A DNA stretch of 64,000 nt, taken from the NCBI GenBank assembly GCA_019637585.1, contig JAHBVL010000004.1, positions 1-64,000 on the forward strand, written 5' to 3'. The translations under genes were made by a program, and so were the position numbers. The notes beneath the pieces are model-generated. The model worked only from the letters and a program-made list of their open reading frames with translations. It ran no database searches and was not told the DNA's origin. Position 1 is the stretch's first letter; every line of letters starts with the position of its first letter. The DNA is from Thermomicrobiales bacterium. GTDB taxonomy: Bacteria; Chloroflexota; Chloroflexia; Thermomicrobiales; UBA6265. Positions 3,719 to 28,969 of this stretch are shown piece by piece.

Positions 3719-4659
3719 TCAGTCCAGCTGATGGCGAATCGCGAAGGAGGCCAGAGCCGTCCGGGAACCGAGATCGAGTTTTCTCATGATCGAGCGAATA
3801 TGCACCTTCACCGTCGCTTCACTGATGAAGAGATCCTCGCCAATCGTCCGATTGGACTTGCCTGCCGCCACGAGTCGCAGCACATCGATCTCCCGGCGGC
3901 TCAGCCCATGCGTGTCCGGAACCGAGATGCGCGCAACGGTCGAAGCCGCTTCCCATGCCGAAAAAGCATCGTCCGCCTCGGCAACAGCGGTATCGAGGTC
4001 CATCGATTTCCCTGCCAACCAGGCGGTTTCGAAATCGTCTTCTTCCATGTGGCTCCTGACGCGACCCACCTCTTCGTCATGCTCCTGTTGATAGCCAAAG
4101 GGAACGGCGGCGCCGGTTTGGCGGCCCAGCTGCTCCATCGCCCCGAAGAGCCGCGCCGCCTGCGCATGACGACCAATCTCATTTGCCCGTGACGCGGCGG
4201 TCCAGAGCGAAAACTGCAACAACCATTGTTCTCCAAGGCGCCCAGAAGCGATGGGACCACCGGAGCAGCCTCCAGCAAGTGTTCGAAGTTATCCACGACG
4301 AGGAGCAGGTGTCGATCGTGCACCGCTCTGGCGATGTGTTCCAGGAGGGGAACATCGCTGCGTTCCTGAACGCCGAGTGCGCGGGCCATCGCCGGCAGCA
4401 CCGCCTCCGCTCCGGCGAGCGGCGCCAGAGCGACGAAGCGAACACCATCCGGGAATCGATGCGAGATCGCCGCGGCCGCCGCGATCGCCATTCGCGTTTT
4501 GCCGACGCCACCCGTTCCCGTGAGCGTCACCAATCGGACGTCATCCCGCAGCAGGAGCGTCGCGAGCTCGTCGATTTCCCGCTCGCGCCCTAACAACGAG
4601 CTCAGCGGGCGGGGAAGCTCGTGTGGAAAAGGAGAGAACCTGGCGGACGGAGCCGGCAT
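3719..4659 (-). pseudogene. Remnant of a second LuxR/ATPase regulator with central deletion and frameshift
   Basis: The reading frame starting at 4659 encodes about 150 residues aligning with the N terminus of the neighbouring LuxR ATPase: LLGREREIDEL, P-loop GTGGVGKT and Walker B LLLVVDNFEHLL. Near 4205-4225 homology stops before the sensor region and resumes in another frame (4222 to 3719) with the C-terminal part: ARLFGAMEQLGRQTG and a complete LuxR helix-turn-helix (GLSRREIDVLRLVAAGKSN). About 500 residues of NB-ARC/TPR core are missing and the two halves are out of frame. The C-terminal open frame could in principle be expressed as a free HTH protein, but no good start is seen. Confidence 0.8.
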
Positions 4660-24662: not shown

Positions 24663-25055
24663 TCAGGTCGCCACCCGCACGTCCGTATGTATGAAATCAT
24701 CTCCGATGAAGAGCAGAGGCTCGTCGAGTTCCGTCGCGAGCGCGTAGGCGAAGCAATCGCCGAAATTGAGCCGAGCCGGATGGCCGGTGCCCTTCCCGTA
24801 GCGTCGCCATGCCAATCGAGCGATCTCCACTTGAGCCAACGTCACCGGTGCGATGGCCAGGCCGATACCCGCCAGGATCTCCTCCATGATCTCCCGGTCA
24901 GCTTCGTCGTTTCGGCGGTCAAGAACCATCCACGTTTCAAGCCAATTCGCGGCGGACACGCTGACACTCCGAGCCTCGAAGATGCTCATCATCATGCGTG
25001 ACGAGGGAGTCTCGTTCAACGCTATGGCGATAAGCGCGGAGGAGTCAACGATCAT
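24663..25055 (-). CDS. PIN-domain toxin (VapC-like), copy 1
   Basis: A 130-residue PIN RNase. Acidic positions: MIVDSSALIAIALNE, NWLETWMVLD, LNFGDCFAYALA and FIGDDFIHTD. It closely resembles the toxin at 28299-28700 (both share the GKGTGHPARLNFGDCFAYAL-type block). Translation is coupled to the antitoxin by a 4-nt overlap (25052-25055). It converges with the DNA polymerase gene. Confidence 0.88.
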   Translation of the reverse strand: MIVDSSALIAIALNETPSSRMMMSIFEARSVSVSAANWLETWMVLDRRNDEADREIMEEILAGIGLAIAPVTLAQVEIARLAWRRYGKGTGHPARLNFGDCFAYALATELDEPLLFIGDDFIHTDVRVAT

Positions 25056-25321
25056 CCGGGTAGTCCGTGCTCATCATAGAGCTCGTCGGCGGAAAGTGGC
25101 AGTTGGTCCTTCAGCCTCTCTCGCAGCCTAGAAGCAAGCGACTGTATATTTTCCATCACCAACTGCCGCTCCTCGGGCGTTTTCGCAGTAGCAAGCGTCA
25201 GCGGAACAGTCGAACGATCATCCAGAGCATCTGCTATTTGCACTATGGCGACCTGCCCCGGCTTGGCGTTGGGGATACGAATCTGACCGTCTGTGTCGAT
25301 GACGAGTCGATAGGTCTGCAT
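25052..25321 (-). CDS. Antitoxin of PIN pair, copy 1 (unnamed family)
   Basis: An 89-residue protein encoded directly upstream of a PIN toxin. The N terminus (MQTYRLVIDTDGQIRIPNAK) resembles a swapped-hairpin AbrB-like strand pair; a helical charged region follows, and the end reads LYDEHGLPG. It aligns throughout with the antitoxin at 28697-28969. ATG 25321 is chosen over 25336 because AAAGG lies 7 nt upstream and the paralogue begins MSTYRLLV. Probably binds the toxin with its C-terminal tail and the operator with its N terminus. Confidence 0.78.
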   Translation of the reverse strand: MQTYRLVIDTDGQIRIPNAKPGQVAIVQIADALDDRSTVPLTLATAKTPEERQLVMENIQSLASRLRERLKDQLPLSADELYDEHGLPG

Positions 25322-25783
25322 CACGTTGCCTTTCATCCTTCCAGCTAAGTCAAGAGTTTACCCTCTCATAGCTCGAGGGCACTCACAAGCGAGTCGCTTT
25401 CGGAGCGGGGCCGTCGTATACGAGTTCGCGCGGCGTCCGAATCACGCCGCTCGTCTATCATCACGGTGAATACGAGGCCCGGTGCTCAGTTCGTCGCCAT
25501 TTCTCGATTGGCAACACCACTCTCCTCCTCTACTTCTCAACAGCGTGGGGAGGGATAGGAGATCGGTGTGATCCTTCCCAAGGTTCGTGACACAAATGGC
25601 CCCTGATCCCCGCACATCAATGCAGGATCAGGAGCCATCATCGGTCTATCAGTTCCGAGGTTCGAGCACCGCCCGGCGCACCGGGAAATGCTCTGGCGGT
25701 CTCCATCGCCACGATGGACTATAGGTCAGAACCCTTCCGGCGGCAACACCACCAACCCCGTCGTTCACTCGTATACTTTGTAT
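25322..25783. other. Intergenic stretch with stem-loop and crcB promoter
   Basis: No coding sequence seen. A stem-loop at 25597-25637 pairs TGGCCCCTGATCC with GGATCAGGAGCCA (12 of 13 pairs, 15-nt loop) without a T-run. A -10 hexamer TATACT lies at 25772-25777, placing a start site near 25784, exactly where the riboswitch begins; no good -35 is seen. The rest holds nothing I can name. Confidence 0.55.
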
Positions 25784-25852
25784 GGGTGATGGCGTCCGCC
25801 CGGATCAGCGATCCAAACTGTCAGATTCTCTGCACTGATGACTCCTACCGAC
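25784..25852 (+). ncRNA. Fluoride (crcB-motif) riboswitch
   Basis: The stretch has the conserved crcB-motif order: GGGTGATGGCGTCCGCC (P1 arm with GATGG), an extra small hairpin GGATC-AGC-GATCC, the AAACTG linker, a P3 stem (CAGA-TTC-TCTG) and the nearly invariant CTGATGACTCCTAC. The pseudoknot GGCGTC with GACTCC pairs at five of six positions (typical members have GGAGTC). It sits 35 nt upstream of the CrcB start, and the spacer contains a short TGCGC-AAT-GCGCA hairpin near the ribosome site. It would raise CrcB expression when fluoride is bound. Confidence 0.88.
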
Positions 25853-25887
25853 GGTTGCGCAATGCGCACAAACGGTCAGGAGCGTGT

Positions 25888-26268
25888 ATGGACTATCTGT
25901 GGATTGCTACCGGCGCTGTCGCGGGCGCCAATCTGCGATACATCATTGGGATGTGGGCTAGCAACCGCTTCGGCGTTGCTTTTCCGTACGGCACATTTGC
26001 CATCAACATCACCGGCGCCTTGGTCATCGGCTTTCTCCTCACGCTGCTGACGAAGATCGTGATCGCCGATCCTCGGTGGCGATTGCTCCTGATCGTCGGT
26101 TTTCTGGGCGCGTACACCACGTTCAGAACTTATGCCTTTGAGGCCATCGCTCTGGTCGAACGTGGCGATGCCGTGCGGTCGGCTGTCTATGTCGTCGGCA
26201 GCAATGCGATTGGGTTAGGCGCCTGTCTGGGCGGCATCGCTCTGGCGCGTATCGTCGGGGCACGATAG
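25888..26268 (+). CDS. crcB: CrcB/Fluc fluoride channel
   Basis: A 126-residue membrane protein with four hydrophobic segments, half of a dimeric fluoride channel. Family motifs: GAVAGANLRY, YGTFAINITGALVIG and GFLGAYTTFRTYAFE. The last motif normally reads GFxGGFTTFSTF; here the serine is Arg and the second Phe is Tyr. Start ATG 25888 (MDYLWIA) has GGAG 7 nt upstream; the frame extending back to 25714 reads through the riboswitch and is rejected. A single crcB gene implies a homodimer unless a second lies elsewhere. DUF190 follows after 13 nt. Confidence 0.92.
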   Translation: MDYLWIATGAVAGANLRYIIGMWASNRFGVAFPYGTFAINITGALVIGFLLTLLTKIVIADPRWRLLLIVGFLGAYTTFRTYAFEAIALVERGDAVRSAVYVVGSNAIGLGACLGGIALARIVGAR

Positions 26269-26281
26269 GAGGCAGAGCGAT

Positions 26282-26635
26282 ATGGAGGGGCTCAATCGTG
26301 ATGAGCGTGCCATCCGCGTGTGCGTCTACTTTGGAGAACGGGATCACTATCAGGGACAGCCGCTTTGGGCGGCGCTTCTCGAGCTGCTTCGGCGCGAGGG
26401 CGCGGCCGGCGGGACGGTTGTTCGAGGGATCGCCGGTTTTGGCGCGCACAGCGTGATTCGTGCCGCAAGGATTGTGGACCTATCGACAGATTTGCCACTC
26501 GTGCTGGAATGGATCGATCAGGAACCGCTCGTGGACAGACTGCTCCCGGCAATTGAGGACATGCTGCAAGGCGGTTTGATCACGACTGACGCTGTGACGA
26601 TTCGCCGCTATCAACCACACGCCAAGCCACACTAG
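26282..26635 (+). CDS. DUF190 family protein
   Basis: A 117-residue cytoplasmic protein of the PII-like DUF190 family: VCVYFGERDHYQGQPLWAAL, then GAAGGTVVRGIAGFG and LPLVLEWIDQ. DUF190 genes are commonly neighbours of crcB and may sense or modulate fluoride export; the biochemical role is not established. AGGAGG lies 9 nt before ATG 26282. It is co-transcribed with crcB under the fluoride riboswitch. Confidence 0.88.
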   Translation: MEGLNRDERAIRVCVYFGERDHYQGQPLWAALLELLRREGAAGGTVVRGIAGFGAHSVIRAARIVDLSTDLPLVLEWIDQEPLVDRLLPAIEDMLQGGLITTDAVTIRRYQPHAKPH

Positions 26636-26687
26636 GAACGTCAGCGCCGCCCCACCATGGGGCGCAACCGTCGAGGAATGCAGAACC

Positions 26688-27407
26688 GTGGAACACTCGC
26701 AGACCTACTACGACTTGCTCGACGTGTTCAAAGAGGCGTCAGGATGCCCCATCTGCCACCTAACGCTGCAGGGTGTCCAGGCGTACCTTGAAAGCCTCAA
26801 CTACGAATATGTGAACGATCCCGGATTCCGGGCAGAAATCGAATCCGCGAATGGATTCTGTCCCAGCCACGCTGACGAGTGGCTACACATCGCACACGTC
26901 CTGGGCACAGCCTTGATCTACCAGGCCGTGCTGAAGCGAGTCTCCCACGATCTGGAACGTCTTCCCGTTGGACGGCGCAGTGGAGGGATATGGGCTCGTT
27001 TCATCTCGGCGGTGACTGCTACCCGGGCGGGCGTCACCGACTGCGGCATCGTCCCTCCCGCGAGAGCCTGCCCGGCGTGCCTCCGCCGGGCGGAGCTGGA
27101 ATCGATGTTCTTGACGGTGCTGCTCCAGGGTCTCGAAGATCCACCGTTTGGAGCAGCCTATCAGGGGTCGTCGCTCTTGTGTCTGCCTCACCTCCGTCAG
27201 GCACTATGCCTGGCCGAGAAGGACATGACATTCTCCGTGCTGCGCGACGCCGCCTGCGAGAGAAACGCGATGCTCGAGGCCCAACTCGCCGAGGTCATTC
27301 GCAAGCATGACTACCGATTTCACGACGAGCCGGTAGGCGTCGAGCACGACGCCGTCGCTCGATCGGTCCGGTATATTGCGGGTGCACCGGGGATCGATCA
27401 CCGGTGA
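26688..27407 (+). CDS. DUF6062-like protein with duplicated CxxC/CxxH zinc motifs
   Basis: A 239-residue protein starting at GTG 26688 with GAGGA 11 nt upstream. Two matching metal-type motifs are visible: Cys20-x2-Cys23 with Cys58-x2-His61, and Cys128-x2-Cys131 with Cys165-x2-His168. Spacing between the paired halves is 34 and 33 residues, so the protein looks internally duplicated with two zinc sites. It lies 52 nt after DUF190 on the same strand and may be in the fluoride transcript. Function unknown. Confidence 0.8.
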   Translation: MEHSQTYYDLLDVFKEASGCPICHLTLQGVQAYLESLNYEYVNDPGFRAEIESANGFCPSHADEWLHIAHVLGTALIYQAVLKRVSHDLERLPVGRRSGGIWARFISAVTATRAGVTDCGIVPPARACPACLRRAELESMFLTVLLQGLEDPPFGAAYQGSSLLCLPHLRQALCLAEKDMTFSVLRDAACERNAMLEAQLAEVIRKHDYRFHDEPVGVEHDAVARSVRYIAGAPGIDHR

Positions 27408-27659
27408 TAGGCGTCGACCTCCGAACAGGAGGTCGTGTGTTCGACGCCCGACTAATGTGCATTTTTTGCACGTTGCTTTTTCCGGCAGTTTCTGCGGCTT
27501 CGGCATATGTTCCTCACATGCTGCTCACGGTATGATCCTGAGCGAGGCGATGGACTTCCACTGTCCCATGCGTAGCGCAAATGCTGGCAGCGACTCACGC
27601 GACAGGGGTCACGTTCCGGACGGAACCATCGAAAATGACATGGAGGCAGGAGCTCTCTC

Positions 27660-28526
27660 GTGAATCCATTCGATACGCTCCCCTTCTTTCTCGCCACGGA
27701 TGGTCTGAAACGGGAGCAGCGAACCACGCTGCTGGCCGATGGATCGCGACAAGAAAGCGTGGCGGAGCACTGCTGGCACCTCTCGCTCCTTGCCCTGGTC
27801 CTGGAGTCGCATGCGCCGCATGGTATCGATCTCGTTCATGTCCGGGATCTCATCACGATCCACGATCTGGTCGAGGTTTACGCTGGGGATACCTGGTTCT
27901 ACGCAGATGACAACGGCGAGGCGGCGGTCAGCGAGGCGGCCGCAGCCCAAACGCTGCTGGCATTGCTCCCGGAGGTTGGTCGCGAACGGTTCCGCACGCT
28001 GATCGAGGAATTCCTGGCGCTGGAAACACTCGAGTCTCGCTATGTGCGGGCACTCGACGTCTTGCATCCAATGGTGCTCTCCTATGCGCCGGGACACGCC
28101 GTCGCCGCGACGCCACTATTGAGAGCCTCCATGGTTCGCGATCGCAAACGCCCCCACCTCGAGCCGTTTCCCGTGCTTTGGAACTTTGCCCAGCGTCTCA
28201 TCGAGAGCGGTATCCAGCTCGGCGTCCTCGATCCAGACTACGTGATCGTTCTCAGGGGAACTCGGGCGCACGGCACGAAGGACAGCGTTCTTCAGAAGCT
28301 ATGTCTCCTGAAAAGCAGCAATCAGGTCAGTTTGAGAGAAGTCATTGCCGACAAACAGCAACGGCTCTTGCGTCTGAGCCGCCAGAGCGTAGGCGAAGCA
28401 GTCTCCGAAATTCAGGTTGGCACTATGACCACTGCCTCGGCCAAAACGTTGCCAGGCGATCCGGGCCAGATCGACATGATCGGGCGTGATCGGCTCCACC
28501 ACCAGGCCAAAGCGCTGAACAATTGA
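27660..28526 (+). CDS. HD-domain phosphohydrolase with altered C terminus
   Basis: A 288-residue protein, GTG start at 27660 with GGAG 9 nt upstream. The N-terminal 195 residues are an HD domain of the YfbR/HDDC2 kind: VAEHCWHLSLLAL (His), LITIHDLVEVYAGDT (His-Asp) and a later LDVLHPMVL. Such enzymes dephosphorylate nucleoside monophosphates. From residue about 214 onward the frame is simply the antisense of the PIN toxin gene at 28299-28700, overlapping it by 228 bp, so the tail is probably acquired and the original 3' end lost. Confidence 0.8.
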   Translation: MNPFDTLPFFLATDGLKREQRTTLLADGSRQESVAEHCWHLSLLALVLESHAPHGIDLVHVRDLITIHDLVEVYAGDTWFYADDNGEAAVSEAAAAQTLLALLPEVGRERFRTLIEEFLALETLESRYVRALDVLHPMVLSYAPGHAVAATPLLRASMVRDRKRPHLEPFPVLWNFAQRLIESGIQLGVLDPDYVIVLRGTRAHGTKDSVLQKLCLLKSSNQVSLREVIADKQQRLLRLSRQSVGEAVSEIQVGTMTTASAKTLPGDPGQIDMIGRDRLHHQAKALNN

Positions 28527-28700
28527 TTCCACCAGTTGGATCGCTTGAGCGTTTCCCCGTCGGTCCACGACAACGAACGACTCAAAGAGGTTCGCCGCCG
28601 AAATCCGACTCCTCTCCGCGTTTCCCAGCAAGTCGAGTATTCGCTGAGCATGGTGTTCGTTGAATGCGACGGAGAGAACCGCCGACGTGTCGACAATCAC
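28299..28700 (-). CDS. PIN-domain toxin (VapC-like), copy 2
   Basis: A 133-residue PIN RNase paralogous to copy 1 at 24663-25055: MIVDTSAVLSVAFNE, LFESFVVVDRRG, LNFGDCFAYALAAQ and FVGNDFSQTD. The fourth acidic motif has Asn-Asp rather than Asp-Asp. It overlaps the antitoxin start by 4 nt and runs antisense to the end of the HD-domain gene. Confidence 0.88.
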   Translation of the reverse strand: MIVDTSAVLSVAFNEHHAQRILDLLGNAERSRISAANLFESFVVVDRRGNAQAIQLVESIVQRFGLVVEPITPDHVDLARIAWQRFGRGSGHSANLNFGDCFAYALAAQTQEPLLFVGNDFSQTDLIAAFQET

Positions 28701-28969
28701 CTGGGAAGACCGTCGTCGCCATAGAGCTCGCGACCGTGGTCAATTGGAAGCTCATCCTTTAACAGTTCTCGAAGTCTCCCTGCCATTTCGAGGATTTCTT
28801 GCTTGACCGCGTTCTTCTCCTCTTCGGTCTCCGCCGTCGCGAGAGTCAGCTCCTGCCGTTCATCGACTCGCTTCACATCTTCCACAGTCACGGTGACGAT
28901 CTGCCCAGGTAGGCTGTCGGGGATTGCCACCTGTCCGTCTGGTCCTACAAGAAGACGATACGTGCTCAC
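28697..28969 (-). CDS. Antitoxin of PIN pair, copy 2 (unnamed family)
   Basis: A 90-residue paralogue of the 25052-25321 antitoxin. Shared features are the TYRLxVxxDGQxxIPxxxPGQ N terminus, an LTLATAxTxEE block, an LxxxLKDxLP segment and the C-terminal GLP ending. Divergent from the sugar cluster promoter at 29041. Confidence 0.8.
   Translation of the reverse strand: MSTYRLLVGPDGQVAIPDSLPGQIVTVTVEDVKRVDERQELTLATAETEEEKNAVKQEILEMAGRLRELLKDELPIDHGRELYGDDGLPR

Follow-up and report, generated by a model that had tools for sequence, protein, structure and literature searches.

Does DUF6062, a widespread uncharacterised protein family, take part in the bacterial fluoride response? The question is raised by a locus of a Thermomicrobiales bacterium in which a DUF6062 gene stands third, after crcB and DUF190, behind a fluoride riboswitch. 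Fluoride-tolerance work has centred on exporters, and the handling of fluoride already inside cells is poorly known. The riboswitches, crcB and DUF190 of this locus are ordinary. We analyzed it within a 64,000-nucleotide stretch of DNA (the window) and consider it highly probable that two divergent fluoride riboswitches act here, the rightward one on translation and the leftward one by termination, and that DUF6062 is a member of the fluoride regulon.

Divergent riboswitches ahead of crcB

An earlier note on this DNA had read a fluoride riboswitch at about 25784 on the plus strand, directly after a TATACT box and with one C-U mismatch in its pseudoknot. The covariance-model search proposed there confirms the element: RF01734 matches on the plus strand with 34.1 bits (gathering score 34; E 1.1e-5 over the whole window). 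TATACT does stand directly ahead, P1 starting at 25784-25785, and an alignment of 31 aptamers gives five pairs and one C·U in the pseudoknot. The picture was incomplete in that it held one of two riboswitches and missed the one on the minus strand. The features of the plus-strand copy are as follows.

25772-25777, plus strand: -10-like box TATACT of a putative rightward promoter, from the sequence
25776-25854, plus strand: fluoride riboswitch aptamer 1 (RF01734 34.1 bits, R1 54.3 bits, covariation in relatives)
25785-25788/25797-25800, plus strand: P1
25802-25806/25810-25814, plus strand: P2
near 25820-25835, plus strand: P3, with a bulge
25791-25796 (GGCGUC)/25840-25845 (GACUCC), plus strand: pseudoknot, five of six pairs and one C·U
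25842-25882, plus strand: proposed translational expression platform, from folding

The putative rightward promoter has no clear -35 element, and TATACT is absent from the list of the sigma-70 scan. R1 is a lineage covariance model that we built from 31 RF01734 matches of the same class, within Chloroflexota. It scores aptamer 1 at 54.3 bits (E 5e-18), partly by construction, the window copy being one of the 31 training rows. Across these aptamers covariation is clear in P1, P2, P3 and the pseudoknot, with 93.5% of cells paired and both-side changes at 15 of 19 pairs; when partners were slid by 1-3 columns as a control, pairing fell to 34-52%. The pseudoknot itself is 98.4% paired, and four of its six pairs changed on both sides. 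In an automatic pseudoknot count, four matches were taken in the wrong register, and their mismatches disappear on reading by eye. The C·U of aptamer 1 is the sole mismatch at that pair among the 31, and two other aptamers have one pseudoknot mismatch each, at other pairs.

Folding connects the pseudoknot with the start of crcB. CUCCUACCG (25842-25850) overlaps the 3' strand of the pseudoknot and in the minimum free energy fold pairs with CGGUCAGGAG, which ends at 25882; this alternative duplex has -12.5 kcal/mol. The crcB Shine-Dalgarno sequence AGGAG occupies 25878-25882, five bases ahead of the ATG, and its unpaired probability rises from about 0 in the plain fold to 0.33-0.93 once the pseudoknot strands are reserved. 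Since CUCCU of the pseudoknot strand pairs with AGGAG in these models, the plus-strand switch looks like a translational ON type. Without fluoride, CUCCU at the 3' end of the aptamer would pair with AGGAG and crcB translation would be low; with fluoride the pseudoknot would form and take up CUCCU, freeing the crcB ribosome-binding site.

The second match is separated from the first by 57 nt, the two pointing away from each other.

25718-25746, minus strand: leftward promoter-like site TTGCCG-17-TATAGT, 9 of 12 consensus bases
25622-25719, minus strand (read from 25719 to 25622): divergent fluoride riboswitch aptamer 2, R1 43.8 bits
25596-25638, minus strand: terminator-like hairpin AUGGCUCCUGAUCCUGCA...UGUGCGGGGAUCAGGGGCCAU followed by UUGUGU, from folds (z -5.9)

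The promoter scan found this one leftward site, with 0.6 expected by shuffling. Aptamer 2 lies outside the training set of R1, which scores it at 43.8 bits (E 1.7e-14); under RF01734 it reaches 23.5 bits (E 0.0025), below the gathering score of 34. By R1 score and platform we call it a divergent, fluoride-riboswitch-like element, which by cut-off is no Rfam member. It has P1 (GGCG/CGCC), a long P2 hairpin, P3 (UCGG/CCGA) and a pseudoknot (GGAGAC/GGCUCC) with five of six pairs and one A·G. The terminator-like hairpin is very stable, but its U tract is weak. Its 5' arm contains the pseudoknot strand GGCUCC, which fits the transcription-termination ON switch that we propose from the modeled folds. 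GGCUCC would lie in the pseudoknot with fluoride, giving read-through, or in the long terminator hairpin without it.

The locus resembles the crcB motif (RF01734) in P1, the optional P2, P3 and the loop-to-tail pseudoknot, in the conserved GAUG and CUGAUGRCYYCUAC blocks and in its position upstream of crcB. It differs in the single pseudoknot mismatch of each copy, the bulged P3 of copy 1, the long P2 and below-cut-off Rfam score of copy 2, and the back-to-back arrangement with apparently different platforms. Judged by sequence, both aptamers would bind fluoride. The divergent pair would share a short promoter region and suggests one ligand driving two promoters via two mechanisms at one site. 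By R1 the source genome holds no copies beyond these two.

Downstream of switch 2 there is no clear fluoride gene. The minus strand carries no more than a short frame that has a strong Shine-Dalgarno-like AGGAGGAG, followed by an antitoxin-like/PIN pair; the original target gene of this switch may therefore have been lost or displaced. This downstream pair, together with a mismatch in each pseudoknot (C·U and A·G) and Rfam scores that barely pass (34.1 bits) or fall short (23.5 bits), would also suit riboswitches that are both decaying. We regard decay as quite improbable, since single mismatches also occur in other members ahead of intact genes, and both copies retain intact P1 and P3, conserved single-stranded bases and mutually exclusive platforms. 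Moreover, the back-to-back arrangement recurs in the phylum, where an R1 survey of 251 genomes, with 150 matches, contains 17 divergent pairs no more than 600 nt apart.

Genes behind the rightward switch

Read as an intact ON switch, the plus-strand element would turn on a fluoride-defence operon of crcB, DUF190 and DUF6062. This gene order, claimed in the earlier note, holds, with all three genes above their Pfam cut-offs.

25888-26268, plus strand: crcB (Fluc fluoride channel), 126 aa, ATG start (PF02537 88.4 bits, TIGR00494 100.5 bits)
26282-26635, plus strand: DUF190, 117 aa (PF02641 107.6 bits, cut-off 23.4)
26688-27407, plus strand: DUF6062, 239 aa, GTG start (PF19538 76.7 bits, cut-off 27)
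27453-27475, plus strand: terminator-like hairpin 3' of DUF6062, from the terminator scan
about 27411-27447, plus strand: second hairpin 3' of DUF6062, from folding

The predicted crcB product passes the cut-offs of both profiles searched, 32.9 bits for PF02537 and 80.45 bits for TIGR00494. As in other CrcB/Fluc operons, DUF190 comes directly after crcB, a pairing that is frequent in the class, whereas the third gene, DUF6062, is an addition here. Riboswitch control of crcB and DUF190, also proposed earlier, is well supported by the sequence; our literature search found no paper linking a fluoride riboswitch with DUF190. The source genome has a second crcB (G000:C29:107970-108311, minus strand), for which no fluoride riboswitch was detected.

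DUF190 and DUF6062 are 52 nt apart, and the gap contains a GC-rich hairpin, GCGCCGCCCCACCAUGGGGCGC, without a U tract. A terminator here would cut DUF6062 off, as had been considered beforehand. We rejected this possibility: the terminator scan lists none in the gap, and the site it does list sits after the gene. With no terminator in between and a terminator-like site behind DUF6062, the three genes could therefore lie on one transcript; the gap and its GC-rich hairpin make co-transcription into DUF6062 uncertain. The same gap and strong hairpin would equally suit a DUF6062 that is a mere neighbour, the riboswitch controlling crcB-DUF190 and DUF6062 having its own promoter or being cut off at the hairpin, and in G057, a genome of the same family, DUF6062 is divergent from the crcB pair, not behind it. 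We think this unlikely, as the hairpin is not scored as a terminator and the terminator-like site comes only after DUF6062. In addition, G101 and G021 both have DUF6062 linked to crcB on the same strand, G021 with a riboswitch directly ahead.

On either side of the fluoride locus lies a pair made up of a PIN-domain gene and a small partner gene; the two pairs are similar, toxin-antitoxin-like and equally oriented (24663-25336 and 28299-28969 of the window, minus strand). The frame of an HD_3 domain gene (27660-28526, plus strand) continues into sequence antisense to the PIN gene at 28299-28700, so the end of the HD_3 gene may have been replaced on arrival of the PIN pair.

DUF6062 in other genomes

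The suggestion that DUF6062 might be a fluoride-response protein gains strong support from comparative genomics, in which it repeatedly takes first or second place after a fluoride riboswitch, across about ten phyla. We scanned an even draw of 251 phylum genomes separately with R1 and PF19538. A same-strand riboswitch lies within 3 kb upstream of 28 of the 87 DUF6062 matches and within 500 nt of 17; chance is ruled out as the cause of the association, with 0.02 expected against the 28 observed. The count by genome (19/68) is safer, since some genes are split over several matches. Among 120 genomes of the class, DUF6062 follows 17 of 48 RF01734 matches, for example in the orders riboswitch-DUF6062-DUF190/CBS (G003) and riboswitch-DUF6062-crcB (G021). 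Several class operons begin with a gene of about 400 aa and also contain a Usp-sized gene and DUF6062; in G019 Pfam identifies a Na+/H+ exchanger and Usp.

A riboswitch is also found upstream in 26 of 80 named DUF6062 loci, a set that overlaps in part with the survey genomes, and in 17 of the 26 it is less than 400 nt away. Circularity through R1, some of whose class training rows lie beside DUF6062, was checked with Rfam's own model, which at gathering score places a riboswitch ahead of DUF6062 in 13 of the 26 linked loci, only L106 having been trained on. The 13 comprise L103 (Omnitrophota), L110 (Sumerlaeota), L113 (Aerophobetes), L101 (UBP3), L121 (Rokuibacteriota), L145 (Armatimonadota), L161 and L164 (Acidobacteriota) and L106 (Thermomicrobiota), together with L119, L128, L150 and L151; Chloroflexota are likewise among the phyla with gathering-level matches, and R1 adds Bacillota (L166). 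A tree of 76 DUF6062 proteins requires 16 changes of the riboswitch label, of which well-supported branches force at least seven. So scattered a label indicates that the link was made or lost many times. In five loci (L118, L119, L121, L145, L147) one riboswitch stands ahead of tandem DUF6062 genes.

This occurrence across phyla further weakens the case for a mere neighbour. Given the recurrent riboswitch linkage, DUF6062 very probably belongs to the bacterial fluoride response, to which it had not been linked before, and genomic association strongly supports its standing as a widespread fluoride-regulon member. It is sometimes tandem or the first riboswitch-controlled gene, which makes a simple, direct test possible. 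None of the papers covered by our literature search names DUF6062; the tables of Baker et al. 2012, the founding paper on the fluoride regulon, may hold an unnamed mention, and priority for the link is not certain.

Operon partners and near neighbours of DUF6062 include enolase, H+-pyrophosphatase, phosphoglycerate mutase, Na+/H+ exchangers, Usp and crcB. They largely match the classes listed for fluoride riboswitches in a passage of the review PMC11139923, where phosphoglycerate mutase and Usp are not among the listed classes. The accessory genes named in that passage are enolase, pyrophosphatase, Na+/H+ antiporter, formate hydrogenlyase and HAD phosphatases. DUF6062 occupies the same operon place as these and shares operons with enolase, H+-pyrophosphatase and Na+/H+ exchangers, but it differs from them in its CPxC...CxxH repeat and in having neither an enzyme signature nor a match to a solved structure.

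Several phylum genomes contain fluoride islands, with three to at least six riboswitches in about 5-25 kb of one contig (G159:C98, G248:C72, G228:C30, G260:C87, G295:C46, G332:C80). At L119 a riboswitch (4467-4543, minus strand), divergent from a riboswitch-DUF6062-DUF6062 unit, stands ahead of an NADH dehydrogenase subunit H-like gene, possibly of formate hydrogenlyase type. A SAM-I/IV riboswitch (L164, 3309-3431, plus strand) occurs in a locus with three fluoride riboswitches, and a fluoride riboswitch of G021 (L071, 3492-3556, minus strand) adjoins a dynamin-family GTPase-like frame.

The DUF6062 protein

DUF6062 of the window is built from two CPxC...CxxH units, in each of which about 34 residues separate CPxC from CxxH. 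All eight ligand-like residues are present (C20, C23, C58, H61 and C128, C131, C165, H168). Among 72 aligned DUF6062 proteins C20, C23, C58, H61, C128, C131, C165, D208 and Y209 are invariant and H168 is nearly so, and profile comparison finds the two halves to be homologous (probability 97.5%, E 5e-12). Long paralogues of 346-438 aa (L054, L057, L058 and similar; family f2) stand directly behind riboswitches, and at least two of them (L054, L057) contain three motif pairs, Pfam scoring the first unit only.

The AlphaFold2 model is all-helical (pLDDT 91), with the motif residues predicted at helix starts. Structure searches returned no match in the PDB (best E 0.77) or among viral structures. 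Within the PDB, the only sequence resemblance is to the zinc site of bS18, a weak profile match (E 0.008). The zinc-binding form of bS18 (CxxC...CxxH) has a similar Cys/His spacing but no overall fold match to DUF6062, and probably only the metal-site pattern is common to both. Because the CPxC...CxxH pattern echoes this site, zinc binding by DUF6062 is likely. We picture a soluble, helical, probably zinc-binding protein of two, sometimes three, such units, which would be induced by fluoride and act inside the cell beside the exporter.

Two DUF6062 genes in three have no detected riboswitch, so the use of this protein extends beyond fluoride switches. The ligand residues are equally conserved with and without an upstream riboswitch, and riboswitch-less genes lie beside a nitronate-monooxygenase-like gene in Bacillota and beside dnaJ in Ktedonobacteria, a possible sign of a wider role in stress. 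DUF6062 could accordingly be a general stress or metal-handling protein that serves many regulons, fluoride among them, and whose biochemistry is not specific to fluoride. The 50 of 76 tree proteins without an upstream riboswitch fit such a protein, as does Usp, another general stress protein that also occurs in fluoride operons, whereas no other recurrent regulon was identified, and the tandem arrays seen and the three-unit copies examined stand behind fluoride riboswitches. We treat it as a serious contender that nonetheless falls short of being probable.

For DUF6062 as a member of the fluoride regulon, our best guess, held weakly, is that it protects or repairs fluoride-inhibited metalloenzymes. 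More specifically, and more doubtful than otherwise, it might represent a new class of intracellular fluoride tolerance, in which modular zinc-site repeats shield or reactivate metalloenzymes such as enolase and pyrophosphatase. The forms counted under this tentative reading are two- and three-unit DUF6062 and the tandem gene arrays.
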